DNA of 64,000 bases, taken from positions 1 through 64,000 of the forward strand of contig NZ_CANMPQ010000002.1 of NCBI RefSeq assembly GCF_947499695.1, given 5' to 3'. Made by a program: the position numbers and the translations under genes. The stretch's first letter is position 1, and each line of letters opens with the position of its first letter. Source of the stretch: an uncultured Allomuricauda sp. Lineage in GTDB: Bacteria; Bacteroidota; Bacteroidia; Flavobacteriales; Flavobacteriaceae. The notes beneath the pieces were generated by a model. It ran no database searches, was not told the DNA's origin, and saw only the letters and a program-made list of their open reading frames with translations. Shown piece after piece: positions 2,808 to 56,178 of the stretch.

Positions 2808-4961
2808 TTATTTTATTAGGTTTATTTCTACCCTTCTATTTTGTTTTCTTCCAATTCTTGTGCTGTTGGAAGCCATTGGTTTTTTTTCACCGTATCCAAT
2901 CGCATTCAATCTTTCTGAAGATATCCCTTCATTGATTAGAAAGTCTCTTACAGAATTGGCCCTTGCTTCTGAAAGTCGCTGGTTGCTTGCGCTACTTCCT
3001 ACACTATCGGTATGCCCTTCCACGGTGAATTTGGCATTGGGATATTCGTTAAGTATTTGGATAATATCTACCATCACGGTTACTGACTCTGGTTTTATGG
3101 TAGCCTTTCCTGTATCGAATAGAATCGTCTTGGCATAGTCATTCAATTGCTTTTGTATTTCAATTGTAACTTCTGGACATCCATAATTGTCTACAGGGCC
3201 AGCAGTATCTGGACACAGATCATCTATATCCACTAATGTGTCCCCATCTTTATCTGGACATCCCTTGTTTTCAATACTGCCCGGATTTTTGGGACAGCGA
3301 TCATCGGCGTCAGCTATACCATCGCCATCAGTATCAGGGCACCCATTAAACTCTTCAAGGCCTGAAATCATAGGGCAGTCATCATCCTTATCCAATACTC
3401 CATCCGAATCGGTGTCTTTCCATGGACACCCATTGTTTTCTTTAGGTCCAGCTACTTTAGGACAGTTGTCATCTTTGTCCAAAATTCCATCCGAATCAGT
3501 GTCTTTCCATGGACATCCTTTGTTTTCAATGGGCCCTGCAACATCTGGACAGCTATCTTCATCGTTAACTATGCCGTCATTGTCTCTGTCCTTTAACTTT
3601 GTTTGATATATCGGAATTTTAAGCCCTGCATATAAATCTGCGGCTTTGGTATTCTTCCCTGTGACAGCAGAAATAATGGACTGGGACCCCAAATATATCG
3701 GACCTAGCCTTAAACCTGCACCCCATTGGAAACCTACTCCTTCCAAATGACTTAATGGAGAGTAGATTCCTAACCATGGAAGCTCATATCTTGGAGTTAA
3801 TGTTACCTGATTCAGAATTCTACCGGTATTGATCTTATTTTTTGATGTCAAAGGAATATCTGCATTCAAGTTTAGGTAGAAGTTTGCGTTCATATTCCAA
3901 TCCACATTGGCATGAACGGCGGTTGGTAGGGTAATATCACTTGATTTAGTTTCAGATATTAAATCAAAGTTATCTTCGAGACCTTCCTCCAATACATCAC
4001 CATCAAAATCGTCAATGTTTTGTGTTCTGTTCAAATTATATAATCTATTTACACCATTGGCGTCTTTTATTTTTCCAATGTCCGTTATGGACAGTCCAAG
4101 TTTGAATTTATATTTATTAGCGCCTCTATCTACTATGGTTTTTCCTGAGACGTCTGTCTTATTGAACTTTTCAAATTCGGGCCTCCATTCATAAACAAAA
4201 CCTAAATCTGTACCAAAACCTGCTCCTCCACTAAAATCAAAAAAATTACCTCCGTTACCTGTATCATCTAAATTATCGGTATTCCCATAATTGAGCTGAC
4301 CTGTTGTTGTTATCTCGCGATTTGCAGCATCATAATCCAATGTTACATCGGTTCCATTAACATATACGTTACCCATACCCTGGATATATTTTAAGCTCAA
4401 TCCTCCCTTAATAAAGTTCTTGCCATCATTCATCAACACTCTTGCATATGAGATGCCAATCTCTCCCCAAAAATTAAAGGAGCCATTTACATTGCCTTGA
4501 TCTATAAAAAAATCTTGACTTTCATCAAAACCTCCTTCCTTATCCAAAATTTCACCACTGACATCGTAAAGATTAAAAATCGACCGCACTCGTGTGAAAA
4601 TTGTTAAGGATTGTTTCTCATTCAAACTTAGCATTACGGAGGGTCCTAAAACATCAATATTCCAAGCTAGGAAATTATCATTGGAAGGGAAGGTAGCAGC
4701 ATTATCAAAAGCCTCACTAAAATCACCAAAGGCATCGTTTAGGTTGAAGCCTATATAGTTATTACCGAAGAATGCGCTGACTCCAAACAGGTTTATATCA
4801 AGCTTAAGTCTAGAATCTGCAATGTTAGCTGGATTGGAAATTACTCCATGCATTCCACTGTAATTATCTGTAAGAAGACCTCCATACGATTGAGCTCTTG
4901 CGGAACATACGGCCGCAAGCAGTAAAAAGCCAAGCAATGTGTTTTTTGAAAACATGTTCAT
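2808..4961 (-). CDS. DUF5723 / thrombospondin type 3 repeat / OmpA-family outer-membrane protein
   Basis: 717 residues. A signal peptide ([13 protein letters not shown]) is followed by a long beta-rich region beginning [31 protein letters not shown], shown here only as its pieces [15 protein letters not shown] and [11 protein letters not shown], characteristic of DUF5723 outer-membrane proteins of Bacteroidota. Then come five acidic calcium-binding thrombospondin type 3 repeats (DRDNDGI, DTDSDGI, DTDSDGV, DTDGDGI, DKDGDTL, each closing with CP). Residues about 605-717 are an OmpA C-terminal domain with [11 protein letters not shown] and the RLSEARA peptidoglycan-binding segment. The likely role is a barrel anchored non-covalently to peptidoglycan. 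It lies upstream of the adhesin on the same strand but a strong terminator separates them. A second Met at residue 3 is an alternative start. Confidence 0.9.
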
Positions 4962-5202: not shown

Positions 5203-7248
5203 TTAATTAAAAACAAGCTCATCCAAAAAGATAAAGCTGTTTCCGCCTGGCACAGCATGCCAATCTGGATTTTTAAGAGGGCTTTCAACCAGAAGACGCA
5301 CCTTTTTTAAGGCTATGGGGTCAAAATCAATATTGTAAGCTTTTCGCTCTATGATGACCGATGGTTGTTGAATACCTAGTTTTACTGTTTTAAGTTTGCT
5401 GAAAGTACTACCATCGGTGGAGCCCCAGACCGTATACCCAACAGGAAAAAATATCCAATTATTAGGGATTGAAAGGCTTCCAATTGAAATATTGGAAACC
5501 ACGGTTTGTTCCTTAAATTCAATAGTCGCGGTCATATGTTGCGCTTCAAAACCAACCCAGTTTCCATCTACAAAATTTGTTGTGCCGCGTTTGAGATCCA
5601 TAAGTGTTTTTCCCCCTTTTGCCTGATATTTTGGATGTGGTGATCTAGCTAAGGACACGTTGCTAATTTGAGCCTGGCTTTTCAGGAAATCGATAGAAGC
5701 AGGTTCGCTTGGCTCCCAACCATCCAAGCTGGTATATGCCTTTAATGTTGTAGTTTCATTTAGGTAAAATGGTTCGGTGTACTCCCTAGGTACAGTATCA
5801 TTTTTAGCATTTTCTGAAACATAATATACTTTTGCTCCTTCAAAAAATTGTTCTATGGCCACCTCAACCGAATCCGTGAAAATTTCATGTGCGGCCAATA
5901 TGGTTGGAGGGGCTAAGGTACTTGCGGCAAAAACGCTATCTGCAATCTGGCCTTGAACCGTTACTCCATTACTTTGGTCCTCAAAAGCCAAAATACCGTC
6001 CTTGGTCATTTTGGTTCTCCATGTAAAGACGGTTTTCAGATTGGGAAAATTCTCCAATATCTTCAGTGCCGAATCATCGAGTTCAGTACCATAAAGGTTT
6101 ACAGATTCCAAATAATCAAACTTCGCTAACTGCTTAATGGTTTCATTACTTATATCAGTGTGTTGTAATTGAAGTTTGGTGAGGTTCTTAAATGGCCTTA
6201 ACTGCTTTACGAGTTCATCATTAAAGTTGGTATAACCCAGATTCAGACCAACTATATTTTCTCTGTGTTCTTTCAATAACTCAAAGTCAGCCTCAGAAAT
6301 GTCCTTTCGTTTCTTAAAATTTACCGAAATCAAAGGCATATCTTCTGCAGCAAGTTGTGCCGACATTCTGTTTTGAGCCAGGGAAGTAATAAATTCCAAT
6401 GGAACCTCATCAACTTGTTCTGCAATCAAAGCCCTTGTAGAAGTATCTTTTTCCAAAGAAGCCAGAATGCCATCCAATTTTGCATCTCGAGGCAAATCTT
6501 TGGTGACACAGTCGAAACAATTCTGATTCTGAATCCACCATTCCATCAATTGCATTTCGTCTGAAGTCAACTGAACTTTCCCTTTTGGAGGCATGTGATC
6601 ATCATCTTCCAGCGGAAGTTCAAGGTGATACATGAAACGTGTTTTTTGTTCGACGCTTAAAGAATCAAACAACGAACCTGACTCACCTCCTGCAAGTAAT
6701 TCTTTCTCTGTAGTGAGGAGCAAATCTCCCTTGGATTTCCCTTGATTATGACAACTAACACACTTTCTCTGAAGAACGGGCTGAATAATGTCCGAAAAAA
6801 CCATCGCCTTGTCAACATCTTCAATTACCGGATCTTCATACTCCTCGTGAAACAGAAAGTCTTCTCCATGGGTAAGACTACCTCCATAATGTCCTGTCAA
6901 GGTCAACAACACCAAAACCACAATAAAAACTGGGAAATACGCTCGTTGAGCTATATTCTTCGGTGACTTTTTCAGAAAGAAGAGCAACAAACTCCCCACT
7001 GCAAAAGCCACAGCAATCCACCTATGATTGAACAGGAGAGCTTCGTCATATCCTCCACCATCACCTAAAAACCAACCAGACACTATAGAAAATACAGAAC
7101 TCAAAGCTCCTATGCCTAAAGCAAACAATATGGTTCCATTGTCCTTCGGAGCTGGCTTTTTTCTGTAATACAGTTCCATTAAGAAAGCTAGAACCAAAAT
7201 ACCAATGGGTAAATGGACAAATAAGGGATGTAAGTTGCCTAATTGCAT
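5203..7248 (-). CDS. Membrane-anchored DUF2231 - cytochrome c - LRR - chitobiase-C-like fusion protein
   Basis: 681 residues, last gene of the five-gene operon. The N terminus (LHPLFVHLPIGILVLAFLME) and three further hydrophobic segments to about residue 120 match DUF2231 membrane modules. A planctomycete-type cytochrome c segment follows with the haem c motif C163-VS-C166-H167 (KCVSCHNQGKSKGDLLL) and the downstream Met ligand candidate in DDHMPPKGK. Residues about 310-430 look like leucine-rich repeats (LKNLTKLQLQHTDISNETI). The C-terminal 230 residues hold a chitobiase/hexosaminidase C-terminal-like beta domain and an F5/8 type C-like module (GNWVGFEAQHMTATIEF). The C-terminal part is clearly homologous to the neighbouring lipoprotein at 7263-8102. 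It probably sits in the membrane with the haem in the periplasm. Substrate is unknown. Confidence 0.85.
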   Translation of the reverse strand: MQLGNLHPLFVHLPIGILVLAFLMELYYRKKPAPKDNGTILFALGIGALSSVFSIVSGWFLGDGGGYDEALLFNHRWIAVAFAVGSLLLFFLKKSPKNIAQRAYFPVFIVVLVLLTLTGHYGGSLTHGEDFLFHEEYEDPVIEDVDKAMVFSDIIQPVLQRKCVSCHNQGKSKGDLLLTTEKELLAGGESGSLFDSLSVEQKTRFMYHLELPLEDDDHMPPKGKVQLTSDEMQLMEWWIQNQNCFDCVTKDLPRDAKLDGILASLEKDTSTRALIAEQVDEVPLEFITSLAQNRMSAQLAAEDMPLISVNFKKRKDISEADFELLKEHRENIVGLNLGYTNFNDELVKQLRPFKNLTKLQLQHTDISNETIKQLAKFDYLESVNLYGTELDDSALKILENFPNLKTVFTWRTKMTKDGILAFEDQSNGVTVQGQIADSVFAASTLAPPTILAAHEIFTDSVEVAIEQFFEGAKVYYVSENAKNDTVPREYTEPFYLNETTTLKAYTSLDGWEPSEPASIDFLKSQAQISNVSLARSPHPKYQAKGGKTLMDLKRGTTNFVDGNWVGFEAQHMTATIEFKEQTVVSNISIGSLSIPNNWIFFPVGYTVWGSTDGSTFSKLKTVKLGIQQPSVIIERKAYNIDFDPIALKKVRLLVESPLKNPDWHAVPGGNSFIFLDELVFN

Positions 7249-7262
7249 GCTTCGTTCTTCGG

Positions 7263-8102
7263 TTATTCAATCAAAATTTCATCTACAAAAGTCCAAGGCA
7301 TGGTTCCTTTGCCAGGATGCCATTCTGGGATTCCATTCAATGCGTAGATTGTTATAGTGATTTGGTCATATTCTCCTTTTTCTATCGGAACTTCTGTGAA
7401 ACCCATTTTTTTGCTTTCACCATTTTCCGAAGGCTCAAGTTTTAACTTGCCTATAGATTTGCCGGATGTTGTTACCTCTATAGCATCCGGAAGAAAAATC
7501 CATGAGCCATGATCTTGTAGCAATCCCACCAACACTTTTTCCATTGGTTCTGAATCTGAAAAATCAAGATTTATAATAGTTTCGGCAGTCTGAAATCCTA
7601 ACCACCTAGCTTCGTTTCTGAAATTTACTCCCCCTTTTCTACCATCGATTAGGGTGTTTGGTCCATTTGCCTTATAATTTTCATGTGCTTCCGGCGTCAC
7701 CGAAACAGAAGCCCCGGAAATATCTTTTTTCATCTGAATGATTGTTCCTTTCACTGTTTCACTAGCATTAAAATCAGGATGAAACGCTTTTACTTTTAGA
7801 TGCGTTGTTGTTGAAACCACTATTGGAGCAATGTAGATTGGTGAACCAGAAGTCACCTCGCTGTTATCCAATGTATATCTGATGTTGGCCTCATTGCTTC
7901 CTGTAAATAATTTAAAATGTGCTGTCTTATTGAACAGAAGCGAATCAACTTCTATCCGTGGTGGGGCCAATTGTACTACTTCAGCTTTTAAAAAGTTTGC
8001 TTTTTTTGATTCGCAGGCTGTTATCGATATTAAAAAAGAACCAATCGCGACATAGTTGAGGATATGTAACCTCTGAAAATTCAATCCAAACCACCCCATC
8101 AT
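7263..8102 (-). CDS. Lipoprotein with chitobiase-C-like and F5/8 type C-like domains
   Basis: 279 residues. A signal peptide with lipobox SITAC predicts lipidation at Cys30. The mature protein has a chitobiase/hexosaminidase C-terminal-like fold (APPRIEVDSLLFN, IRYTLDNSE, TTHLKVKAF) followed by an F5/8 type C-like module (ENYKANGPNTLIDGRKGG, ARWLGFQTAETIINLDF). These are the accessory modules usually attached to GH20 hexosaminidases; no catalytic domain is present. The start overlaps the stop of the NHL gene upstream (ATGA), so translation is probably coupled. It is a paralogue of the C terminus of the next protein. A glycan-binding or complex-forming role is inference. Confidence 0.8.
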   Translation of the reverse strand: MMGWFGLNFQRLHILNYVAIGSFLISITACESKKANFLKAEVVQLAPPRIEVDSLLFNKTAHFKLFTGSNEANIRYTLDNSEVTSGSPIYIAPIVVSTTTHLKVKAFHPDFNASETVKGTIIQMKKDISGASVSVTPEAHENYKANGPNTLIDGRKGGVNFRNEARWLGFQTAETIINLDFSDSEPMEKVLVGLLQDHGSWIFLPDAIEVTTSGKSIGKLKLEPSENGESKKMGFTEVPIEKGEYDQITITIYALNGIPEWHPGKGTMPWTFVDEILIE

Positions 8103-9133
8103 ACCCTATATAATTTTATTGGATATGTGTTCCAGGAATTCCATTGTGCCACATAGATATTATCATCTTCATCTATACAAACATCATGAGGATGTCTGAA
8201 TATTTTTAGCGCCTGGTGCATATGACTCAAATTTCCATTCTCGTATGTGGGAGTACTCCCGCCTGGTGCGGAAATGAGTTTATTATTTTCATCAAGAATG
8301 GAGATAAATCCAGTTCCTTCAGAACCATCTCCAGACCAAATAGTTGCCAAATACACATTTTTGTTGTGTATTACAGGCCTGCAGATATATGCTCCCGGCA
8401 AATCGATGGTCTCCAGATATTCGCCCGACATTGAAAATCGTTTTAACTTATTCTGCTGTCTTGCAGTAATCAATAAAGTGGGATTGGATGCATCACGATT
8501 ATCAATACAGATACCATGAGCATTGTTGAACAGGTGATCTTCATCTCCTGGACCTCCAAAAACATTTTTGACTTTACCTTTGGCATCATAATGGGTAATA
8601 TACTGAGCTCCATATCCATCTGCTACATAAACATCACCATTATCTGCTATAGCGGTTTCGGTTGGAATATATTCCTCTTTCTTCTGATACTTTCCTGTTT
8701 CTATTGGAAAAGGAAATACTTGTATCACCTTTCCATCTAAAGTGGTTTTTATGACCTCGTGACGATTGTTATCGCTGATATATAAAAACTCCGTCCCATT
8801 TTCATCATGAAGCGTAAGACCATGGGCTCCTGGGTAATCTGTCCCCCATGAATCCAATAATTTTCCGGACTTATCATAAATTAGGACATTGTTTTGGGTA
8901 TGATTGGTAAGTAAAATTATCCGGCCCTTGGCATCCTGGGCCATTTCGTGACAATCTTGCACCGGGTAACGCTCACTATTGAGTTTTCCCCAATCCATAT
9001 CGACCTTGTATTTGTAGTCGCCATGTCCTATTATAGCATCTTTCATAAATCTTGGAGAAAATGATATGTTACCAACAGAAGCCAAACCAATACCTGCCAA
9101 ACTACTTTTCTCAATGAACTTCCTACGCTTCAT
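8099..9133 (-). CDS. Tat-exported NHL-repeat (six-bladed propeller) protein
   Basis: 344 residues. A twin-arginine leader (KRRKFIEKSSLAGIGLASVG) indicates folded export by Tat. The remainder is built of NHL-type blades with alternating DxxGxI and YVADxxxxxI patterns (DAKGRIILLTNHTQNNVLIY, NGDVYVADGYGAQYI, HPHDVCIDEDDNIYVAQWN). Such propellers occur in peptidyl-alpha-hydroxyglycine amidating lyase-like proteins and in many scaffold proteins; the enzyme role cannot be assigned from sequence. The ATG overlaps the upstream DUF1501 stop (TAATG) and its own stop overlaps the downstream start, so it is embedded in a translationally coupled operon. Confidence 0.85.
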   Translation of the reverse strand: MKRRKFIEKSSLAGIGLASVGNISFSPRFMKDAIIGHGDYKYKVDMDWGKLNSERYPVQDCHEMAQDAKGRIILLTNHTQNNVLIYDKSGKLLDSWGTDYPGAHGLTLHDENGTEFLYISDNNRHEVIKTTLDGKVIQVFPFPIETGKYQKKEEYIPTETAIADNGDVYVADGYGAQYITHYDAKGKVKNVFGGPGDEDHLFNNAHGICIDNRDASNPTLLITARQQNKLKRFSMSGEYLETIDLPGAYICRPVIHNKNVYLATIWSGDGSEGTGFISILDENNKLISAPGGSTPTYENGNLSHMHQALKIFRHPHDVCIDEDDNIYVAQWNSWNTYPIKLYRV

Positions 9134-10623
9134 TATGCCAAAATATCTTTTACGATATGACCCTCTACATCAGTTAATCTGAATCGTCGTCCCTGGTATT
9201 TATAGGTAAGTCTTTCGTGATCGATTCCGAGCAAGTGCAATAACGTTGCCTGGAAATCGTGGACATGAACAGGATTTTCGGTAATGTTATATCCGAAATC
9301 ATCGGTCTCACCATAAACAATTCCCGGTTTTATACCTCCACCGGCCAACCACATCGAAAAACATCTTGGATGATGGTCTCTTCCATAACTTTCTTCAGTC
9401 AAAATACCTTGCGAATAATTGGTTCGGCCGAATTCACCTCCCCAAATCACAAGGGTGTCTTCTAACATTCCCCGTTGTTTAAGGTCCGCGACCAAGGCTG
9501 CAGATGCTTGGTCTGTATCTTTTGCCTGCTTTTCAATGGCACCCGGTAAATTATCGTGCTGATCCCAACCCATATGATACAGTTGGATAAAACGTACATC
9601 CTGCTCTGCCAATCTTCGGGCCAAAAGACAATTCGCTGCATAAGTTCCCGGTATTTTCGCCTCTGCCCCATACATTTTGTAAATGTAGTCTGGTTCATTT
9701 TCTGTATTCATTACCTCTGGAACGGAAGTTTGCATCCGATAGGCCATTTCATATTGAGCTATTCTACTTTGAATTTCATCATCTCCAAATTCTTGATACT
9801 GCTTTTCGTTAAGCTCGGCCAGATTATCTAGAATACTTCTTTTTGTTTCTTTTGAAATTCCTTTGGGATCGTTCAAATAGAGTACAGGATCTTTTGCTGC
9901 CCTAAATTGCACCCCTTGATGTAGCGAATGTAAAAATCCATTACCCCAAAGTCGGGTATACAACGGTTGCCCATTTGGTCTTCCTGTTCCTCTAGAAAGT
10001 AAAACTGTAAAAGAGGGCAAGTTTTCATTTTCACTACCTAGGCCATAACTAAGCCATGACCCAATACTTGGTCGACCAGGTTGCTGCGAACCTGTTTGAA
10101 AAAATGTAACGGCCGGGTCGTGATTAATGGCTTCGGTAAACATCGATTTTACAATACAAAGGTCATCCACCATTTTGGCCGTATATGGCAACAAATCACT
10201 TATCCATGTTCCGTTCTTTCCATATTGCTTAAACCCAAAATTAGACCCCACCAATGGAAAGCTGTCTTGTCCTGAGGTCATTCCTGTTAATCGCTGTCCA
10301 TTTCGTATAGATTCTGGAAGGTCTTCCCCTCTTCTTTCGTTAAGCAATGGTTTATAGTCAAACAATTCGAGCTGAGAAGGACCACCACTCTGGAAAAGGT
10401 AAATTACCCGTTTTATTTTGGCAGGGTGGTGCGGGGAATGTAAGATTCCTTTGATTCCCATTGGGTTATCTGCCTTTGCCAATAGTTCCCCATCTTTTCG
10501 ATAAAAATTACACCCTAACAGTGTCCCCAAAGCGGCACCTCCAATTCCAAGCGCAGATTTTCCTAAAAACGCACGCCTGTTCAAGTTAAGGGCATTGTCG
10601 GCTAATATTTTCTTTTCTCCCAT
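9133..10623 (-). CDS. Tat-exported DUF1501 family protein (sulfatase/phosphatase-like fold)
   Basis: 496 residues. The leader has a twin-arginine motif (NRRAFLGK, Arg16-Arg17) and ends TLLGC at Cys38, so it may be a Tat-exported lipoprotein. The body matches DUF1501 (PF07394): [20 protein letters not shown] near residue 70, [31 protein letters not shown] and [24 protein letters not shown]1501 is distantly related to the alkaline-phosphatase/sulfatase superfamily, and its His/Asp-rich motifs suggest metal binding; no activity is established. DUF1501 and DUF1553 genes pair very commonly in Planctomycetota and some Bacteroidota. It starts one base after the upstream DUF1553 gene ends. Confidence 0.92.
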
Positions 10624-10624
10624 G

Positions 10625-12982
10625 TTATCCTCTTGATATGGTTTCGTCCAAATTTAAAATGGTATGTGCAGTTAAAGCCAAAGCCGCCAATTGATCGGCC
10701 GGAAGATTTTCAGTATTTTCAAACTCCCCGATAGAAAGATATTCATCCGGTATTACTTCACCTGTTTTAATTCTTTCCAAAGATGCCTCGTATAGGTTAT
10801 TGAGAATAGTGAGTTCTTCTTCATTAGGTTTTCTAGATGTCGCACTCTGGAAAATAAAACTTATTTGATCGTTGACATCTACCCCAGTTGCTCCTAATGT
10901 TTTTATGGCCAATGCCCTTGCCGCTTCGATCAACTGGGGATCGTTCAATAGCACTAAAGCTTGAAGTGGGGTATTGGTTTCTTGTCGTTGTACGGTGCAT
11001 AAATCCCTTGATGATGTATCAAATGTCATCATGCTTGGTGGGGGTACGGTTCTTTTCCAAAACGTGTACAGACTCTTTCGATAGAGATCTTTTCCTGAAC
11101 TCTGTACATAGGTTGCTGTACTACCTCCACCTCCACCTGTGGTCTCTTCCCAGATTCCGTCAGGTTGATATGGTTTTACGCTTGGCCCACCTACCTCAGC
11201 ATTTAAAAGGCCGCTTATTTTTAACGCTTGATCACGAATCATTTCAGCGCTTAGTCTTAAACGGGGAGCCCGAGCCAAATAGGTGTTCTCTGGGTCTTTC
11301 TCGTTCATTTCCGCAGAAATCTCCGTGCTTTGCTGATAGGTAGCTGACAACGCCATATATTTCATCATCTGCTTAATATTCCAACCTTCCGTTCTAAATT
11401 TTACTGCTAAATAGTCCAATAACTCTGGATGGGAAGGTAATGCTCCTTGGTTTCCAAAATCATAAGAACTTTCCACCAAACCTTTTCCGAACATACGTTG
11501 CCAGATACGGTTGATGGCCACCCGAGATGTTAGCGGATTCTTCTCATCAAAAAGCCATTTTGAAAGTCCCAATCTGTTTCGAGGAAGTTCTTCCGGGAAT
11601 GGCATAATATCTTCTGGTGTTCCCGGAAAAACTTGATCAGTTGGTTGGTCGTATACTCCTCTATTCAAAACAAAAGTCTCTCTTGGATTGGGCATATCTT
11701 GCATGACCATAATCTCAAGTTTAGGTTCTGAAACATTGGTCATGTTGATAAAATCCAACACCCCTTCTGCATCTTGTTTGGTGACAGCCATGTAAGGTTT
11801 CGGGATGACCTGCGCATTGGCCATTAGGCCATCCTCATCCAAATTGTTGAAAAACCCGAACAACTGGAAGTGGTCTTTTTGACTCACCGGGTCATATTTA
11901 TGATCATGACAACGGGCACATTCCAAGGTCATTCCCAAAAATGCTGTACCGAAGGTATTTGTGCGATCTTCTACATATTCAATGCGATATTCTTCAGGAA
12001 TGATTCCTCCTTCTGCGGTAATTTTATGGTTCCGGTTAAAGCCTGTAGCCAATATTGATTCTTTCGTAGCATTGGGCAACATATCTCCAGCAAGTTGATA
12101 GGTCACAAATTCATCATAACCCATATTCTTATCAAAGGCATGAATGACCCAATCACGCCAAGGCCACATCGTACGTTCAAAATCATCTTGATAACCATGG
12201 GTATCGGCATATCTCGCCACCTCCATCCAATCGGCAGCCATATTCTCGGCATAAGCCTTGGTGTTCAGTAAAGAATCAATGATTTTCTCATATGCGTTCT
12301 CAGAATTGTCATTTATAAAGGCATTTACTTGCTCTACTGCAGGAGGGAGACCCGTAATACTAAAAAAAGCTCTTCTGATCAAATATTCTTTATCTGCCTT
12401 TTTTGAAGGTGTAAATCCTTTAAGTTTTAACTTTTCTAGGACAAACTTGTCAATTTCATTTTCGCTCCAATCATCGGATTCAAGCTCAGGTATTTTAGAT
12501 TCGACCGGCGGTACAAATGCCCAATGTTTTTTGAAAACAGCTCCTTGATCCACCCATTTCTTCAACAATGCTTTTTCATATTCTGACAAAGTGAGGTTGG
12601 ATTCCGGCGGAGGCATCACCATATTGGGATCTTCTTCAAAAATACGTTTGATCACTTCACTCTTTTCAGAATCCCCAGGAACGATACCATATCTGTCTTT
12701 ATTTTCACCCAGAGCTATATAGGCATCCTCGGCTTTGTTTAATGAAAGGCCAGCTTCTATTGCGTTTTTATCTGGTCCATGACATGCAAAACATCTATCG
12801 GAGAGGATAGGCTTGATATGAAAAGAAAAGTCGACACTGTCTGGTAGCTGTCCGGGCGAGCCAGCATCGGAAACGGAAACATAGTTCCCTTTCTCATTTT
12901 GACAACCAATTATCGTTGCTACAAAAACAAATAGCAGAGCAACATAGGAGATTTTTTTTCTTGATATTGGATCAGCTGACAT
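10625..12982 (-). CDS. DUF1549/DUF1553 protein with planctomycete-type cytochrome c domain, lipoprotein
   Basis: 785 residues from the start chosen here. The frame is open to an ATG at 13096, but the ATG at 12980-12982 is preferred because it puts a normal leader and lipobox (FVATIIGC) at the N terminus. The haem c motif C64-FA-C67-H68 ([12 protein letters not shown]) lies in a PSCyt1-type domain with the MVMPPPES segment. DUF1549 follows ([36 protein letters not shown]) and then DUF1553 ([65 protein letters not shown]). It is the first gene of the operon. Its role is unknown; an electron-transfer function is implied by the haem site. Confidence 0.9.
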
Positions 12983-13138
12983 GTCAAGATAGATTACGTA
13001 ATATTTGAAACTAAAACTACCCAGATATTCTCTAATCCGGTAAAATTTTTCGACCAATAACAGGGCTGCAAAGACTAATGTGGAAATTGACAACAATAAG
13101 CAAATGCGTTATCAAGCCACCCGGACCACTAGTCCGTT

Positions 13139-13852
13139 TTAATTAGTTCCCTCGTTTAAAATTCGGCTTTTAGCTTCATTTAAGTAGCTTCTTCCGATAA
13201 TATATCGAATCCCATCAATTTCAAGGCTATTGCCCTCGATGGCCTCAACTTTATCTATGGCAATGGTATAAGATCTGTGAATTCGAATAAACTTATCGGA
13301 TGGCAATTCATCCGTAAAGCTTCCAAGCGTCCTATGGATAATATATTTTGCTGAAGTGGTCTTTATGCGAATATAATCTTTGAGACTTTCAACGACCACA
13401 ATCTCATCAATGAAAATCTTTTGCAACTTCTTTTTGTCCACCTTTACGAAGATACTTGGGTGCTCGTTGGATGAACCGCCAGATTTTATGGTTTCTTGCT
13501 TTAGGCCAATGATTCGATTTACTGCTTTAAGAAAGCGAGGAAATGGAATTGGTTTCACCAAGTAATCGATAGCCTCTAATTCAAAACTCTTCAATGCATA
13601 TTCTTCATGCGCCGTGGTGATTACAACCATTGGAACCACATTTAGGGATTTCAAGAATTCCATTCCATCCAAAATGGGCATATTAATATCTAAAAAAATG
13701 ATATCTACTTTGTTTTCCTGCAAAAAGGATGAGGCGTCAATAGCATTTGAAAACGTTTGAACAAGCTGAAGCTGATTTACTTGTTCCACATAGTTTTTCA
13801 GCACATTTATCGCCAAAGGTTCGTCATCCACAATAATTACTCGTAACTCCAT
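13139..13852 (-). CDS. LytTR-family response regulator
   Basis: 237 residues: an N-terminal receiver domain with acidic pocket Asp9-Asp10, phosphoacceptor Asp55 (FLDINMPILDG) and the conserved Lys in YLVKPIPF, then a C-terminal LytTR DNA-binding domain (IFIDEIVVVESLKDYIRIKT, FIRIHRSYTIAID). The start overlaps the kinase stop (TAATG), so the two are coupled. It lies between the DUF1553 operon, which starts 157 bp downstream on the same strand, and the divergent mannoside locus. Which of these it controls cannot be told from sequence. Confidence 0.95.
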   Translation of the reverse strand: MELRVIIVDDEPLAINVLKNYVEQVNQLQLVQTFSNAIDASSFLQENKVDIIFLDINMPILDGMEFLKSLNVVPMVVITTAHEEYALKSFELEAIDYLVKPIPFPRFLKAVNRIIGLKQETIKSGGSSNEHPSIFVKVDKKKLQKIFIDEIVVVESLKDYIRIKTTSAKYIIHRTLGSFTDELPSDKFIRIHRSYTIAIDKVEAIEGNSLEIDGIRYIIGRSYLNEAKSRILNEGTN

Positions 13853-14937
13853 TACACTTTTAGTTTTAAATCCACATGGAACATATTATCTTTTTCAAAA
13901 ATAGAAAGCTCGTAATCTTTGGGGTCGTAACCCAATTCCAATCTTTTTTTAACATTGGAAAGACCTATTCCTCCACCTCGACTTTCTGCTTTGCTTTTAC
14001 TGTCTTTTTTAGGAATTGTATTTGAGACTTTGAAATACAGAAAATCATCCGTTACATCTACATCCACCGAAATATGCATGTCTCCAATATTTTTGCTAGC
14101 ACCGTGTTTAAAGCAGTTTTCAATCAAAGGAACCAATAGCATCGGCGCTATGACTTTGTTGTCCATGTCACCGGAAACACCAACATCTATTTGAAGCGTA
14201 TCATTAAAACGTATACGTTCCAGGTCGATATAATTTTGAATGCAATCAATCTCACTTCGCAGGTCTTGCCTGCGCTGTCTAGTTGCATATAGCAAATATC
14301 GCATCATCTCTGAAAGCTTTAGAATAACCTCTGGTGCTTTTTTGGATTTTTCCAGTGTAAGTGAATAAATGTTATTCAGTGTATTGAAGAAAAAATGAGG
14401 GGATACTTGAGACCTCAGAAACTTCAGTTCCGTCAGTAATTGCCTCTTTTCAAGGTCGTGCAATTTACTATTCTCCCTTAACCAATCCACCGTCACTTTA
14501 ATCGCGGTCGCAAAAGCTACCACATAAAGCTCTCCAATCATCGTAGTAATTGCATAGTTAAACGTAATGCTGTCGGTCACCCCGGAGCCTTCTGGCATTA
14601 CATTGGTGCTGACTAAAAAGTAGGTGAGATTAAATTTCACCAAAAGCATAATAAAAAGTGATGCAACCATTAAAGCAGTATAGGTCACGTATTTCCTTGT
14701 GTATACAAACTTGGGCATCAAAAAATAAATGTTGAAATATGCCAGGGTAATATGAATGGGGAAACCAATAAGATTGGTTTTTAATGAAAGCCCAAAATCG
14801 TCGTGTACGCTTCCCCACCGTATGGTATTAATAGTGAGATATATAAGCCAGAAGACGATATGATGCTTATACGTAATGCGGTATTGTCGGGGTGTTTCGG
14901 CGTTTAAAAGCCCATCCAACTTATCATTTATATACAT
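13852..14937 (-). CDS. LytS-type sensor histidine kinase (His_kinase family)
   Basis: 361 residues. Four predicted membrane helices occupy roughly residues 27-150 with no large periplasmic sensor domain. The kinase core has the H-box FLRSQVSPHFFFNTLNNIYS with His181, the N-box LLVPLIENCFKHGASKN and the G-box GGGIGLSNVKKRLELGY. These are hallmarks of the LytS/YehU group that works with LytTR regulators. The gene is coupled to its regulator and diverges from the GH92 gene at 15161 across a 223-bp region with a candidate operator. The sensed signal is unknown. Confidence 0.95.
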   Translation of the reverse strand: MYINDKLDGLLNAETPRQYRITYKHHIVFWLIYLTINTIRWGSVHDDFGLSLKTNLIGFPIHITLAYFNIYFLMPKFVYTRKYVTYTALMVASLFIMLLVKFNLTYFLVSTNVMPEGSGVTDSITFNYAITTMIGELYVVAFATAIKVTVDWLRENSKLHDLEKRQLLTELKFLRSQVSPHFFFNTLNNIYSLTLEKSKKAPEVILKLSEMMRYLLYATRQRRQDLRSEIDCIQNYIDLERIRFNDTLQIDVGVSGDMDNKVIAPMLLVPLIENCFKHGASKNIGDMHISVDVDVTDDFLYFKVSNTIPKKDSKSKAESRGGGIGLSNVKKRLELGYDPKDYELSIFEKDNMFHVDLKLKV

Positions 14938-15160: not shown

Positions 15161-17407
15161 ATGAATAAACACTTTTATATTGTTGTGTTGTTGGTAGTAT
15201 TTTTATGCTCATCCTGCCAACAACAGAACAAACCTAGTACTTCTGAAAAACTAACATCTTTCGTAGATCCCTTTATTGGAACCGGAGGACATGGGCATAC
15301 CTTTCCTGGGCCAACTGCCCCTTTTGGGATGGTACAACCCAGTCCGGACAATGGGACTGCAGGATGGGATTGGTGTTCAGGATATCATATAACAGATTCG
15401 ATAATCTCCGGTTTTGGACAACTTCATTTAAGCGGAACGGGTATTGGGGACCTAGCCGATATTTTACTTATGCCAACAAATGACTCCGTAGATGTGTCAT
15501 TATTTGGAACAAACAAAGACAGTCTTCCTTACACCTCCAATTTCTCACATGCCACGGAGATTGCATCGCCAGGATATTATAAAGTCCACTTGGACGACCC
15601 GAACATTAAGGTTGAATTGACCGCCAATTCCTATGTAGCGTTTCACAAATACACCTATGAAGCTGAAGGCAATCCTTCATTTATTTTGGATTTGGGTTAT
15701 GCAGTTAATTGGGACAAGCCTACTGAAAGCTCAATTCATTTGGAAAGTAAAACCTTGCTTACCGGTCATCGTTATAGCACGGGGTGGGCTAAAAATCAAA
15801 AAGTATTCTTTGCTATCGAATCTTCTGAACCAATCATCAAAACAACATTTGGATCGGAAGAAGATATTATTGACGAATCTGATAGCGTATCAGCGATAAA
15901 AACAGGGGGGCAATTCTTTTTTAACCCGGGGAAAGAAAAGGTAGTTGAACTTAAAATAGCGGTTTCATCAGTAAGTATTACAAATGCCAAACAAAACTTG
16001 AAACAGCATGGGTCAACAACTTCTTTTGAAACTATAAAAAATAGCTCAGCCCAACAGTGGGAAGAATTATTGTCCAAAATAAAAGTTGAAACGTCACAAG
16101 ATTCTTTAAAAACAATTTTTTACACAGCATTATACCATACGCAGATTGCTCCTGTCCTTTTTAGTGATACAAATGGAGAGTTCAGATTGCAGAATGACAG
16201 TATCGCCAAAGCCGATGGTTGGGAAGCCTACTCCACCCTATCCCTATGGGATACTTTCAGGGCGGAAAATCCTTTATTGAATATCCTCCAACCAGAAAAA
16301 GTCAATAGTATAATCCAATCCATGTTGACCTATTACGAAGAGCAGGGTCGACTTCCTGTCTGGACCCTTTATGCCAATGAGACCAACACCATGACTGGAA
16401 ACCATGGAGTTTCGATGATTGCTGAAGCGTTTTTAAAGGGAATTAGAAATTATGATATCGACAAGGCCTATGAAGCGGTCAAAAAAACCATGATGGATGA
16501 TATCCGTGGATTGAAGCCTTATAAAGAGTTTGGATTTATCCCATACACCGAGTTGGATGAGTCCGTCACAATCAGTCTTGAGTTTGCTTACAATGATTGG
16601 TGTATCGCTCAAATGGCAAAAGTATTGGGTAAAGATGAGGATTATGCCTATTTCATAAAGCGGTCAGAGGCATTTAAACATTTGTTCAATACGGAGACTG
16701 GATTTATGAGAGGTAGGTCCAAGGATAAAGAAAGTTGGAGAGCGCCTTTTGATCCAAAATATTCCAATCACAGATTGCATACCGATTACACCGAGGGAAA
16801 TGCTTGGCAGCATAGCTGGTTTGTGCTTCATGACGTTGCTGGCTTTATTGAATTGCATGGCGGAAATGAGCCTTTCACCGAAAAATTGGAACAACTTTTT
16901 ACAGAAAGTTCTGAAATCTCAGGAGACAATGTTTCCGCGGATATTTCGGGACTCATTGGACAATATGCACACGGTAATGAACCTAGCCACCACATTGCTT
17001 ATCTATTTAATCGAGCAAAAAAGCCATGGAGAACCCAACATTGGGTAAGAGAGATTTTAAATACCCAATATAGTGCCCAGCCAGATGGCTTGAGTGGCAA
17101 CGAAGATTGCGGACAAATGTCTGCCTGGTATGTATTCAGTTCCTTGGGATTCTATCCCATGAATCCTGCTTCGGGTCAATACGAGTTGGGAAGCCCGCTT
17201 TTTACCAAGGTAACTATTACCATATCCGAGAATAATAATTTTACCGTTCTCGCAGAAAATACCTCATCAATCAACAAATACATTCAATCAGTTAAACTAA
17301 ATGGAAAGTCATTGCAGCGTACATATATCACCCATGATGAAATCTTGGCTGGCGGTACGTTGGAATTTGAAATGGGTGCAAACCCTAATAAAAATTGGGG
17401 CCTTTAG
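15161..17407 (+). CDS. GH92 alpha-mannosidase, lipoprotein (first of four)
   Basis: 748 residues. The leader ends LCSSC, a lipobox. The GH92 N-terminal signature FVDPFIGTGGHGHTFPGPT starts near residue 34. Conserved catalytic-domain motifs are YTEGNAWQHSW with Glu545 (the position of the GH92 general acid), YAHGNEPSHHIAYL at about 602-615, and GNEDCGQMSAWYVFSSLGFY with Asp649 (catalytic base region). GH92 enzymes are calcium-dependent exo-alpha-mannosidases acting on alpha-1,2, 1,3, 1,4 or 1,6 bonds; linkage is not decided here. It opens an operon-like run, with the SSS transporter 19 bp downstream. It probably acts in the periplasm or on the cell surface. Confidence 0.95.
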   Translation: MNKHFYIVVLLVVFLCSSCQQQNKPSTSEKLTSFVDPFIGTGGHGHTFPGPTAPFGMVQPSPDNGTAGWDWCSGYHITDSIISGFGQLHLSGTGIGDLADILLMPTNDSVDVSLFGTNKDSLPYTSNFSHATEIASPGYYKVHLDDPNIKVELTANSYVAFHKYTYEAEGNPSFILDLGYAVNWDKPTESSIHLESKTLLTGHRYSTGWAKNQKVFFAIESSEPIIKTTFGSEEDIIDESDSVSAIKTGGQFFFNPGKEKVVELKIAVSSVSITNAKQNLKQHGSTTSFETIKNSSAQQWEELLSKIKVETSQDSLKTIFYTALYHTQIAPVLFSDTNGEFRLQNDSIAKADGWEAYSTLSLWDTFRAENPLLNILQPEKVNSIIQSMLTYYEEQGRLPVWTLYANETNTMTGNHGVSMIAEAFLKGIRNYDIDKAYEAVKKTMMDDIRGLKPYKEFGFIPYTELDESVTISLEFAYNDWCIAQMAKVLGKDEDYAYFIKRSEAFKHLFNTETGFMRGRSKDKESWRAPFDPKYSNHRLHTDYTEGNAWQHSWFVLHDVAGFIELHGGNEPFTEKLEQLFTESSEISGDNVSADISGLIGQYAHGNEPSHHIAYLFNRAKKPWRTQHWVREILNTQYSAQPDGLSGNEDCGQMSAWYVFSSLGFYPMNPASGQYELGSPLFTKVTITISENNNFTVLAENTSSINKYIQSVKLNGKSLQRTYITHDEILAGGTLEFEMGANPNKNWGL

Positions 17408-28574: not shown

Positions 28575-31500
28575 ATGATCAAAAGACTTCATTACTTTTT
28601 AATGATTGTGTCGCTTTTATGTTTTCAAGGCATATCGGCACAAGGAAAAACCGTTTCAGGAACGGTTACTGATACAAGTACCGGAACTCCGCTTCCAGGT
28701 ATTAACGTTGTCGAAAAGGGTACCACAAATGGTACTTCGACCGATTTTGATGGTAACTACACCATCTCTGTATCCAATGATGCCTCAATTTTGGTATTCT
28801 CTGCAATTGGATACTCTGCTAAGGAGATATCCGTTAGCGGTCAATCAACTATCAATACATCTTTAGAGGAAAGCCTTGAAGCTTTAGGTGAGGTAGTTGT
28901 TACTGCATTGGGTATCAAAAAAGAAACTAAAGCACTGGGTTACTCTTTAACAGAGGTTGGTGGAGAAGAAATCTCAACAATCAAAACACCCAACGCCATT
29001 AATGCACTTCAAGGAAAGATTGCTGGTGTGAACATCACGCAAAATTCAACTGGTGCCGCTGGTTCAAGTAGGGTTATCATTAGGGGTAACAGTACATTGA
29101 CCGGTAACAACCAACCATTATATGTTGTTGATGGTATTCCAATCGGAAATGACAATAATGGATCCGCAAGTTTGTGGGGTGGAAATGACGGAGGTGATGG
29201 TATTTCCAGTCTTACAGCAGATGACATAGAATCTGTTTCCGTTTTAAAAGGTGGTTCGGCTACCGCACTTTACGGTTCTCGTGGTGGTAACGGTGTTATC
29301 TTGATCACGACCAAAAGTGGTAGAGGACAAGAAGGTTTTGGAGTAGAATTCAGTACTACCGTTAATTTTGATAAAGTAAATACTAACATCCAAGATTTCC
29401 AGACTTCATATGGTCAGGGTGTTAGAAACGAAAAGCCCGCCAACCAAGCCGCAGCATTGGATGCTGGACTTAGCTCTTGGGGTCCAAGATTGGATGGTTC
29501 TCAAGTTGTTCAGTGGGATGGGGTTGAAAGACCTTATTCTTACGTAGGAAGTAACTTAGACCATTATTACAGAACGGGTACAACTTTTATAAATACGCTA
29601 TCTCTGTCTAACGGTACTGAAAATTCCAATTTTAGATTTTCAATGTCAGATTTTTCAAATGATGACATTGTTCCAAATGCTGGAATGAACAGAAAGTCTT
29701 TTTCCTTAAATGCTGGTGCAGTGTTGAATGAGAAATTGACCGTTCAGATCAATTCAAAGTACATTATTGAAGATGTAATGAATAGACCGCGATTGTCAGA
29801 TGCGCCTGGTAATGCTAACTTCACAGTTGGACTTCTTTCTCCAAACGTGGACGTACGATTTATGGATCCTGGAGTCAATGAGGATGGTACGGAAAGACAA
29901 TATTCCAACAACATCTTCTCACAAAATCCTTATTTCGCCGCCTTCAACTTTAGAAATGAAGATGTAAGAAATAGAATAATCGCTTCCACATCGATTCGTT
30001 ATGACATTCTTGATTGGTTATATCTTACAGGACGTGTTGGTGTTGACCACTATAACAGAAAGCAAACTGGAGTTACTCCTTTTGGAACCGCTTTCCAACC
30101 TTTGGGAAGTATGTCAGAACAAGAAAGAATATATACTCAGGTAGATTCAGACCTTATTTTAGGTGCGGATAAAGATATTAATGAGCAATTTGGTATATCT
30201 GCTTTCGTCGGAGCTAACAATAACAAAATCACGTTCGAAGAGCTTAACTTAGGTGGAGGTAATTTTATCGTACCTGGCCTTGAAGATATTTCGAACCTAC
30301 AAAACCAAAACAGAAGTAGGAATTTTAATGAAAGAGAAATTGGTTCTTTGTATGGGTCCTTAGAAGTTTCATATAATGATTATGCCTATCTAACTTTCAC
30401 AGGAAGAAATGACTGGTTCTCCACTCTTTCATTCCCAGGAAAGACCACACCAAATAACGATTTTTATTCATCTGTAAATGCGAGTTTGATTCTTTCAGAC
30501 ATGTTTGAGTTGCCAACGTTTATTGACTTCTTCAAATTACGTGGTGGTTATGCCAACACAGCAGGTGGTGCAGATCAGGCATACCAATTAGGTCTACTTT
30601 ATGAAATATTTGATCAAGGTCACCTCGGACAGCCATTGGGTAGAATCTCTGGAGGAACCGTTCCGAATGCCAACCTGGTTCCTTGGAACAAGGATGAAAT
30701 CGAAATCGGTTTTGATGCAAGATTTTTTGGAAACAGATTGTCTTTTGACTTTGCATACTATACTAATGAAACTACCAATGATATTGTAAATGTTACAACA
30801 TCCGTTGCTTCTGGTTTCGGTGCTGCAACTGCAAACCTTGGTAAGATTGAAAACAAGGGTGTTGAACTTCTAATTTCTGGAACACCAATTCGATCGGCAG
30901 ACTTCGAGTGGAATACATCAATGAACGTTTCGTTCAACGAAGGTTTGGTAACAGCTACCAATGCTGACAATGCAGATATTAGTCTTGATGAGCCAAGAAC
31001 CAGAAACGTAAGAATCCAGCACATCGTTGGTGAGCGTTACGGAACAATTTTCGGAACCTCCTACGTGAGGGATAACGACGGTAATATCGTTTATGACATC
31101 GATGGCGACGGAGTGCCGATTGCACGTCAAGGAGAAAGAAAAATATTGGGAGAAGGTGTTCCACCATGGACATTTGGTTTCACCAATACTTTCCGTTACA
31201 AGAACCTTAGCGTTAACTTTTTGATTGATGGTAAATTTGGAGGTCAATTGTTCTCAGGTACCAATTCAATTGCTTACGGTACTGGATTGCACAAAAATAC
31301 AATCGAAGGTAGAGAAGGTGGTTTAGCAGTAACCGGCGTTGATGGGTCAACCTTTAATGCAGATACTGGGGCTGGAACATCTTTCACAACTACTGTAGCT
31401 CCGGAAAACCTTCAAACCTATTGGGGAAGAGTTAATGATATTGCTGAAGAGTTTGTTGAAGACTCAGATTATATCACATTCAGACAATTGAGCATTGGCT

Positions 31501-31706
31501 ATACTTTGCCATCCAAAATTTTGGAAAAAACTTTCCTAAATAGTGTTTCCGTAAATTTACTAGGACAAAACCTGTTCTTTATAAAAAGAAGCATTGACAA
31601 TGTTGACCCTGAGAGTGCATACAATGCAGGTAACTCACAAGGTCTGGAATATTTCGGTGTTCCTTCTACAAGAAGTTATGGTTTAAGTCTTAATGCTAAG
31701 TTTTAA
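28575..31706 (+). CDS. SusC/RagA-family TonB-linked outer-membrane transporter
   Basis: 1043 residues. Signal peptide (LLCFQGISAQ), carboxypeptidase-D-like domain at about 25-105 (TVSGTVTDTSTGTPLPGINV, TDFDGNYTISV), a plug domain from about 110 (EVVVTALGIKKETKALGYS, ALQGKIAGVNITQ, QPLYVVDGIPIG, GSATALYGSRGGNGVILITT) and a beta-barrel ending in an aromatic (SYGLSLNAKF). SusC proteins import oligosaccharides with a SusD lid using TonB energy. A 232-bp gap separates it from the GH92 genes, so it may have its own promoter. Its SusD partner starts 12 bp downstream. The substrate is inferred to be an alpha-mannoside or high-mannose glycan. Confidence 0.96.
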   Translation: MIKRLHYFLMIVSLLCFQGISAQGKTVSGTVTDTSTGTPLPGINVVEKGTTNGTSTDFDGNYTISVSNDASILVFSAIGYSAKEISVSGQSTINTSLEESLEALGEVVVTALGIKKETKALGYSLTEVGGEEISTIKTPNAINALQGKIAGVNITQNSTGAAGSSRVIIRGNSTLTGNNQPLYVVDGIPIGNDNNGSASLWGGNDGGDGISSLTADDIESVSVLKGGSATALYGSRGGNGVILITTKSGRGQEGFGVEFSTTVNFDKVNTNIQDFQTSYGQGVRNEKPANQAAALDAGLSSWGPRLDGSQVVQWDGVERPYSYVGSNLDHYYRTGTTFINTLSLSNGTENSNFRFSMSDFSNDDIVPNAGMNRKSFSLNAGAVLNEKLTVQINSKYIIEDVMNRPRLSDAPGNANFTVGLLSPNVDVRFMDPGVNEDGTERQYSNNIFSQNPYFAAFNFRNEDVRNRIIASTSIRYDILDWLYLTGRVGVDHYNRKQTGVTPFGTAFQPLGSMSEQERIYTQVDSDLILGADKDINEQFGISAFVGANNNKITFEELNLGGGNFIVPGLEDISNLQNQNRSRNFNEREIGSLYGSLEVSYNDYAYLTFTGRNDWFSTLSFPGKTTPNNDFYSSVNASLILSDMFELPTFIDFFKLRGGYANTAGGADQAYQLGLLYEIFDQGHLGQPLGRISGGTVPNANLVPWNKDEIEIGFDARFFGNRLSFDFAYYTNETTNDIVNVTTSVASGFGAATANLGKIENKGVELLISGTPIRSADFEWNTSMNVSFNEGLVTATNADNADISLDEPRTRNVRIQHIVGERYGTIFGTSYVRDNDGNIVYDIDGDGVPIARQGERKILGEGVPPWTFGFTNTFRYKNLSVNFLIDGKFGGQLFSGTNSIAYGTGLHKNTIEGREGGLAVTGVDGSTFNADTGAGTSFTTTVAPENLQTYWGRVNDIAEEFVEDSDYITFRQLSIGYTLPSKILEKTFLNSVSVNLLGQNLFFIKRSIDNVDPESAYNAGNSQGLEYFGVPSTRSYGLSLNAKF

Positions 31707-31718
31707 AAAAAAAGAATT

Positions 31719-56149: not shown

Positions 56150-56178
56150 GGTGGACCGCTTTGCGGTCCACCTTTTTT
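56150..56178 (+). terminator. Rho-independent terminator of the small membrane protein gene
   Basis: A 10-bp GC-rich stem (GGTGGACCGC and its complement) with a TTT loop is followed by six T residues. It begins 27 bp after the stop and runs up against the stop of the convergent GH13 gene. No T run is present on the other strand, so it serves the plus-strand gene. Confidence 0.93.

Follow-up and report, generated by a model that had tools for sequence, protein, structure and literature searches.

A recurrent PSD1, DUF1501 and DUF2231-cytochrome gene core with a variable slot in an uncultured Allomuricauda and other Bacteroidota

A 64,000-nucleotide stretch of DNA from an uncultured Allomuricauda sp. 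(the window in what follows; contig NZ_CANMPQ010000002.1, positions 1 to 64,000) encodes at 5203–12982 five minus-strand open reading frames (ORFs), which we call A to E and which are joined, in that order, by junctions of +1, −1, −4 and +14 bp. Comparison of this operon with its relatives shows that A (a PSD1 protein), B (a DUF1501 protein) and E (a DUF2231-cytochrome membrane protein) form a conserved core and that C and D occupy a variable slot. A sequence-only reading of the window had proposed a five-gene operon, which the ORFs and the recurrence of their order elsewhere confirm, and had treated it as one fixed five-part system, a description that does not survive comparison: the C/D slot can also hold a TIM barrel, another propeller-type protein, a sulfatase, or nothing. 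We tentatively assign the operon to a family of exported redox cassettes spread across Bacteroidota, in which carbohydrate would be oxidized by exported proteins and electrons would pass through E to the membrane, a reading that we consider plausible but still short of probable.

Within the genus, the operon is accessory. A search with C covered 59 genomes (the window's own, 35 others of the same genus and 23 of the same order) and gave matches in 12 of them. Orthologues of C with 75–84% identity occur in 8 of the 35 other same-genus genomes, in all eight within an A-B-C-D-E order and in seven with the kinase and GH92 genes adjoining the operon (the exception is G015); extra, distant copies of C are present in G011 and G033 (51% and 47%), and only weak partial matches in G035 and G043. 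PSD1 was found in 10 of the 14 same-genus genomes scanned (own included), the same ten that carry C at 47% identity or more, and none was found in the scans of G001, G005, G018 and G035; it is because same-genus genomes with and without PSD1 and C both exist that we call the operon accessory. The five-gene order also occurs at three loci beyond the genus set (L052, L124 and L149), and this recurrence, together with that in the 8 same-genus genomes, argues against a chance arrangement. Across the orthologous same-genus loci D is far less conserved than B (38–49% versus 90–94% identity), and the closest named DUF1501 relative, among the best 80 of 589, belongs to a Maribacter metagenome bin (86% identity). 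In paralogous operons of these genomes A, B and E are constant and the content of the B–E interval varies: it is empty at L031, L035 and L036, holds a propeller and a sulfatase at L033, a xylose-isomerase-like TIM barrel at L037 (with a similar-looking gene at L040) and a Mala_s_1-like protein at L038 (similar at L039), Mala_s_1 being, we presume, a propeller family.

Beyond the genus, PSD1 is encoded by 38 of 296 Bacteroidota genomes in a phylum-wide sample, representing 27 genera. Among 60 PSD1 loci hand-picked from 29 of these genomes, mostly on long contigs, A directly precedes B in 56 (the exceptions are L144, L162, L172 and the tandem array L179); in the same run after A-B we find E at 31 loci, C at 10 and D at 2, and two loci (L124 and L149) show all five genes in order. 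L179 (G314:C67) is a tandem PSD1-DUF1501 array with PSD1 copies about 3–5 kb apart, and similar PSD1 spacing is seen by coordinates in G223, G263, G302, G326 and G334. A second set of loci came from a DUF1501 profile scan (the best 80 of 589 relatives), which we sorted into 48 loci with a Bacteroidota lineage in the title and 32 others. The Bacteroidota-titled loci have A directly before B in 43 cases, E in 23, C in 7 and the full order in one (L052); at L041, C is broken into two reading frames and D is truncated by the end of the contig. The 32 loci not so labelled have A-B in 22 and neither E nor C in the run in any. Of the 15 loci of the second set without a strict A-B pair, six contain a nearby PSD1 frame (L045, L060, L073, L081, L088 and L104) and nine have no PSD1 or DUF1800 gene adjoining DUF1501. 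Among these nine, two contain runs of N (L080 and L096) and three have little upstream DNA (L099, L111 and L117); L091, L093, L097 and L120 have at least 4.4 kb upstream of DUF1501 and no adjoining PSD1 or DUF1800, showing that DUF1501 can occur with no partner next to it, with a distant PSD1 piece on the opposite strand at L120.

The association of E with PSD1 is close to complete at the level of whole genomes. We searched the same 296-genome draw, judged by genome handles, with a profile of the first 260 residues of E, counting matches with E below 1e-50 as full-length or near full-length (the match in G334 is cut by the contig start). Such an E protein occurs in 37 genomes, all of them among the 38 with PSD1, and in none of the 258 PSD1-free genomes, where misses are possible as at most nine candidates were scored per genome (Fisher p 2e-46, uncorrected for kinship). 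Weaker matches, among those listed, are mostly the membrane half alone or the cytochrome half alone. Conserved co-occurrence, which the sequence-only reading had named as its own check, was borne out for A, B and E and not for C and D. The remaining PSD1 genome, G327, encodes a shorter PSD1 protein (613 aa) that has a single CxxCH (the second motif), lacks PSCyt1 and lies beside DUF1501 (L255:5608-7449, G327:C1); it is possibly an intermediate between the PSD1 and DUF1800 types described below. Ten loci, each in a different genome (L246-L254 and L160), encode one protein in which the E module is followed by PSCyt2-PSD1, with a DUF1501 gene adjoining on the same strand in every case; nine of the ten fusions contain the full DUF2231-cytochrome module, and L254 is cut inside it by the contig end. 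The fused form is a two-gene version of the system, and because it joins the E module to PSD1, direct contact between A and E is likely.

The products of the operon and the surrounding features are collected in Table 1. All three domains of A exceed their Pfam cut-offs (PF07635, 60.1 bits against 22; PF07583, 276.5 against 29.8; PF07587, 336.5 against 28.5); its ORF could extend upstream to a TTG at 13096, and its structure model has a predicted local distance difference test score of 78. B is a full-length DUF1501 protein (PF07394; 521 bits, profile positions 2–390 of 390, E 2e-156). The profile of C matches peptidyl-alpha-hydroxyglycine amidating lyase (3fvz; E 4e-14) and, more strongly, Thin/TRIM-type NHL domains (best 1.5e-17), and D shares 25% identity with the C-terminal part of E across 248 residues (E 3e-19). 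E had been described as a fusion of DUF2231, cytochrome c and leucine-rich repeats (LRR); Pfam upholds DUF2231 and PSCyt1, places a CHB_HEX match slightly under its cut-off and reports no LRR for this protein, with LRR matches, partly under cut-off, in E paralogues. The earlier attribution of export or membrane signals to all five proteins agrees with simple sequence patterns: a lipobox in A (IIGC at 24), a twin-arginine translocation (Tat) motif and a lipobox in B (NRRAFL at 15, LLGC at 35), a Tat motif without a lipobox in C (KRRKFI), a lipobox in D (ITAC at 27) and four hydrophobic stretches in E. Likewise, CxxCH haem-c motifs are present in two of the proteins, as had been noted, and number three in all (A at 64 and 355, E at 163). 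The NCBIfam names ScyF and SO2930 were rejected, as their scores lie far under the cut-offs.

Table 1. Features of the operon and of its surroundings, in window positions
Feature	Position	Strand	Basis
Gene E: DUF2231 four-helix membrane domain, PSCyt1 cytochrome, LRR-like region, CHB_HEX-like and C-terminal module	5203-7248	-	Pfam, hydrophobicity
E haem motif: CVSCH, residues 163-167	6748-6762	-	Invariant with M219 in 84 sequences
Gene D: lipoprotein, CHB_HEX_C_1/Fn3_assoc; stand-alone relative of the E C-terminal module	7263-8102	-	Pfam, sequence comparison
Gene C: Tat-exported NHL propeller with invariant H62, H104, E159, H206, R252, H316	8099-9133	-	Pfam, conservation
Gene B: DUF1501, Tat motif then lipobox, alkaline-phosphatase fold	9133-10623	-	Pfam, profile and fold comparison
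B signature region with D354, H356, E397, R400, D416, H417	9373-9564	-	Invariant in 177 sequences; kept in 54 distant DUF1501 copies (E397 in 53)
B His168, opposite the catalytic Cys (formylglycine site) in sulfatases	10120-10122	-	Profile alignment, not coordinates
Gene A: PSCyt1-PSCyt2(DUF1549)-PSD1(DUF1553) lipoprotein, dihaem, 785 aa from ATG	10625-12982	-	Pfam, CxxCH motifs, conservation, structure model
A haem motif 2: CARCH, residues 355-359	11906-11920	-	C355, C358, H359 and H361 invariant in 158 sequences
A haem motif 1: CFACH, residues 64-68	12779-12793	-	C64, C67, H68 each in 97% of 158 sequences
LytTR response regulator, probably controlling the operon, upstream of A	13139-13852	-	Pfam; neighbour also at genus loci, L041, L124
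Membrane histidine kinase, LytTR partner	13852-14937	-	Pfam; neighbour also at genus loci, L124
Divergent glycan locus (context, outside the cassette): GH92 x4, SSF, GH130, CBM9, SusC/D, ASPIC/FG-GAP, MFS, ROK	15161-39072	+	Pfam

PSD1 is one of two usual partners of DUF1501. The window's own genome carries a second DUF1501 gene (570 aa) directly beside a DUF1800 gene (L034:7235-10463; C2, about 887.2-890.5 kb), DUF1800 is present in all 35 other same-genus genomes searched, and a DUF1501 frame occurs in 53 of 53 fetched DUF1800 loci (match plus 1.5 kb per side). Among 61 sampled Bacteroidota genomes, the same 25 have DUF1800 and DUF1501 and 36 have neither; going by position, a DUF1800 match is found no further than about 1.2 kb from each of the 37 DUF1501 places besides that in the window, such that every DUF1501 in this sample stands beside PSD1 or DUF1800. 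Only the window's genome among the 61 also appears on the 38-genome PSD1 list. The earlier view of DUF1501 as a mainly planctomycete family is at odds with these 25 genomes, 24 of which have it beside DUF1800 only. CxxCH is present in just 1 of 54 DUF1800 proteins, all from the fetched Bacteroidota loci. In profile comparisons, small profiles of PSD1 and DUF1800 gave a probability of 1.8%; larger profiles gave two collinear segments (20.7% and 2.7%) with scores of 36.9 and 27.9, where the controls reached no more than 23.6 (40 column shuffles) and 28.1 (a real profile with a haem motif in common); and a PSCyt2-PSD1 profile built from the ten fusions and the G327 protein gave 80.5% (score 49.3; the highest among 40 shuffles was 23.3). 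A remote relationship between PSCyt2-PSD1 and DUF1800 is therefore probable, the best value coming from a selected profile. No profile similarity was found between DUF1501 and DUF1800, and a PDB sequence search with PSD1 returned no credible match. VIA matches of the whole A model outside the N-terminus are weak and helical only; dihaem enzymes, save for the N-terminal cytochrome matches, are absent from that list, an absence that does not tell against a dihaem fold.

Structure comparison assigns DUF1501 the alkaline-phosphatase fold that is common to the alkaline phosphatase superfamily. In hhalign, DUF1501 aligned with a set of full-length sulfatases (chosen for a C-x-P-S-R-like pattern) at a probability of 96.4%, where earlier comparisons with poorer profiles had given 65% and about 2%; the DUF1501 sequence profile alone, run against the PDB, gave weak matches to ENPP4 and sulfatases (E 0.04–0.9). 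DUF1501 is, we assume, a member of the Pfam alkaline phosphatase clan, and the relationship may already be on record. The superfamily is defined by a Ser, Thr or Cys nucleophile that starts the catalytic helix; in the sequence alignment B has none of these and carries His168 in its place, and a His occupies this position in all 177 sequences and in all 54 distant DUF1501 copies. The type I sulfatase CxPSR motif is absent from B (HDPA stands opposite C-x-P-S, and PF00884 is unmatched), and in the alignment the Asp pair after strand 1 is left without a counterpart. Judged from these alignments, DUF1501 looks like a phosphatase/sulfatase-like protein with a rebuilt active site and an apparently rearranged set of metal ligands.

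Invariant residues, here and in B, were read from sets picked by score and length limits, which include near-duplicates, so that the sequences are not independent. Beside the haem motifs of A (Table 1), the six tabulated residues of C are invariant in 36 sequences, and in our reading would fall one to each propeller blade. In E, H7, H12, H75, H120, H127, the CxxCH motif and M219 are invariant in 84 sequences; judging by where the helices lie and by positive charge in the loops that follow helices 1 and 3, the five histidines are all predicted to sit at the outer face, next to the cytochrome.

An oxidation step performed by exported proteins, with electrons handed on to the membrane, is in keeping with the dihaem protein A, the five-histidine membrane cytochrome E and a Tat-exported B. 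A link to sugars is suggested by the neighbouring glycan locus, by the binding-type modules in D and E, by the slot genes of the paralogues, and by L132 and L149, at which a glucosamine-isomerase plus PIG-L protein comes after the cassette. The substrate, complex, chemistry, electron flow and metal centre that follow are what we infer for the cassette. B and A would jointly form an exported oxidoreductase acting on carbohydrate, most likely a mannose/N-acetylglucosamine fragment of the glycan that the adjoining GH92/GH130 locus processes. Electrons would move from the two haems of A to the c-haem of E and on, through the five invariant histidines, to the quinone pool; the C propeller may bind or process substrate or product with its inner His/Glu/Arg ring, D and the E C-terminus may bind glycan, and the kinase/LytTR pair would probably control the operon and the glycan locus jointly. 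Several observations weigh against this proposal. Some cassettes lie beside housekeeping genes (elongation factor P, biotin carboxylase, ketoacyl synthase), and a Pfam tally covering 84 of 216 operon neighbours is mixed, led by SIS_2 and TIM barrel with five each and including two sulfatases. The G015 copy and the loci L052 and L149 have no GH92 gene next to them, and E follows in little more than half of the hand-picked loci (31/60). PSD1 has no PDB fold match beyond its N-terminal cytochrome, and nothing therefore proves that it is an enzyme. Finally, DUF1800, the probable PSD1 relative, nearly always lacks CxxCH and yet pairs with DUF1501, so that the function of DUF1501 need not be redox.

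If DUF1501 were instead a hydrolase of the sulfatase/phosphatase type, acting on an ester or phosphodiester, then PSD1 or DUF1800 would be its dedicated structural or chaperone subunit and the haems of the PSD1 branch would serve partner assembly or redox control. This account, which we regard as rather unlikely, draws on the homology of DUF1501 with sulfatases, on its fold, and on a nearly haem-free DUF1800 that, among the 61 sampled genomes, occurs in exactly those where DUF1501 does; it sits poorly with a His at the nucleophile-aligned position of every sequence checked, with the lack of a counterpart to the Asp pair, and with a dedicated membrane cytochrome confined to PSD1 genomes. The scarcity of CxxCH in DUF1800 partners also tells against the idea that PSD1 is a MauG-like dihaem enzyme modifying DUF1501 post-translationally, with DUF1501 as the working enzyme; the two CxxCH motifs of A and the tight A-B gene pairing would suit such a role, but we consider it very improbable. 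Another alternative is a sensor or adhesion device, with the propeller, LRR-like and carbohydrate-binding-type modules acting as glycan receptors and the cytochromes as reporters of redox state to the kinase/LytTR pair. The adjoining regulatory genes and the binding-type modules of C, D and E speak for it, but among the loci compared these regulators neighbour only the close form of the operon (the genus loci, L041 with LytTR, and L124) and not L052, L132 or L149, and the residues conserved in the core are those of A and B that look catalytic; we judge a sensor improbable.

In a bolder reading, which we consider unlikely, DUF1501 would be the head of a so far unrecognised class of exported oxidoreductases, built on an alkaline-phosphatase scaffold with the nucleophile replaced by His and a redox metal held at D354, H356 and H417 with E397 and H168. 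Its usual helical partner would come from one superfamily, as the nearly haem-free DUF1800 or as PSCyt2-PSD1 with its haem; the PSD1 branch would be wired to the membrane by the DUF2231-cytochrome, sometimes fused, and swaps of the slot genes would change the substrate range. What DUF1501, PSD1 and DUF1800 do can now be tested with three core genes or with the natural two-gene fused form; the handles are a predicted active-site signature common to the PSD1 and DUF1800 branches, a possible route for electrons and a class of substrates suggested by the glycan locus.

Related gene clusters have already been noted in Planctomycetes and Verrucomicrobia. The available text of two papers describes combinations of PSCyt and PSD domains in proteins of Rhodopirellula and freshwater Verrucomicrobia (PMC2754498, PMC5615132), with 41 copies each of PSD1 and PSCyt2 in R. 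baltica (PMC2754498); He et al. propose a role in carbohydrate metabolism for the Verrucomicrobia proteins and report conserved neighbours of an unknown family (PMC5615132). The domain combinations and the conserved gene beside PSCyt2 genes resemble the present operon, and as far as these texts describe it we infer the unnamed neighbour to be DUF1501. The context proposed there is one of sulfatases and carbohydrate binding; unlike those systems, the present one belongs to Bacteroidota and has a dedicated DUF2231-cytochrome membrane protein, which follows A-B in none of the 32 loci of the second set without a Bacteroidota label. A DUF1501 genomic module of the Planctomycetes-Verrucomicrobia-Chlamydiae (PVC) bacteria (Kamneva et al. 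2012, as cited in PMC4452313 and PMC4960237) is, in the citing passages, a conserved cluster with signal-peptide proteins that is preferentially present in compartmentalised PVC bacteria (PMC4960237). It shares with our operon a DUF1501 gene in a conserved cluster, with PSD1 as module partner in our reading of those passages; it is tied there to intracellular membranes, whereas the genes described here are spread across Bacteroidota. A DUF1501-DUF1800 pair beside bacterial chitin synthases (PMC5122149) likewise has, in the portions available, a DUF1501 with a Tat motif and an adjoining partner gene, but that partner is DUF1800, whereas the operon has haem-bearing PSD1 and the genome keeps the DUF1800 type elsewhere. 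With ENPP proteins and S1 sulfatases DUF1501 shares fold and profile similarity, and differs from them by the invariant His. We found no paper naming both DUF1501 and DUF1553; in the accessible parts of the related literature we found no description of a function for DUF1501, PSD1 or DUF1800, all widespread families, nor of the DUF2231 partner, the fusions, the His substitution or the DUF1800-PSD1 relation, though supplements lay outside the search and an earlier description is possible. As far as that literature goes, the membrane partner, the fusions, the His substitution and the shared-partner pattern are what this analysis adds.

Regarding the genomic setting, the divergent glycan locus contains a SusC/SusD pair at 28575-33209; by Pfam, neither SusC nor SusD is among the five operon genes, and the operon is not in itself a polysaccharide utilisation locus. 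GH92 and GH130 are the usual kit for mannose-rich N-glycans, and the locus has the look of one for N-glycan or mannan use. An apparent fusion of the LytTR gene with A at L030 is an artefact, as a run of N (15284-15949) spans most of the LytTR gene, and a LexA-like Pfam match in the fused ORF is under its cut-off. Rfam and tRNA scans gave no match, and a Bacteroidota-type promoter pattern gave a single minus-strand match in 4.8-15.4 kb, which lies within A and is uninformative. Elsewhere in the window, an OmpA-type protein with repeated D-x-D-x-D-G segments (2808-4961) adjoins a large surface-type protein cut at the window start, and adjoining alpha-amylase-type and GH65 genes (56177-60348) form an ordinary maltose or starch locus.

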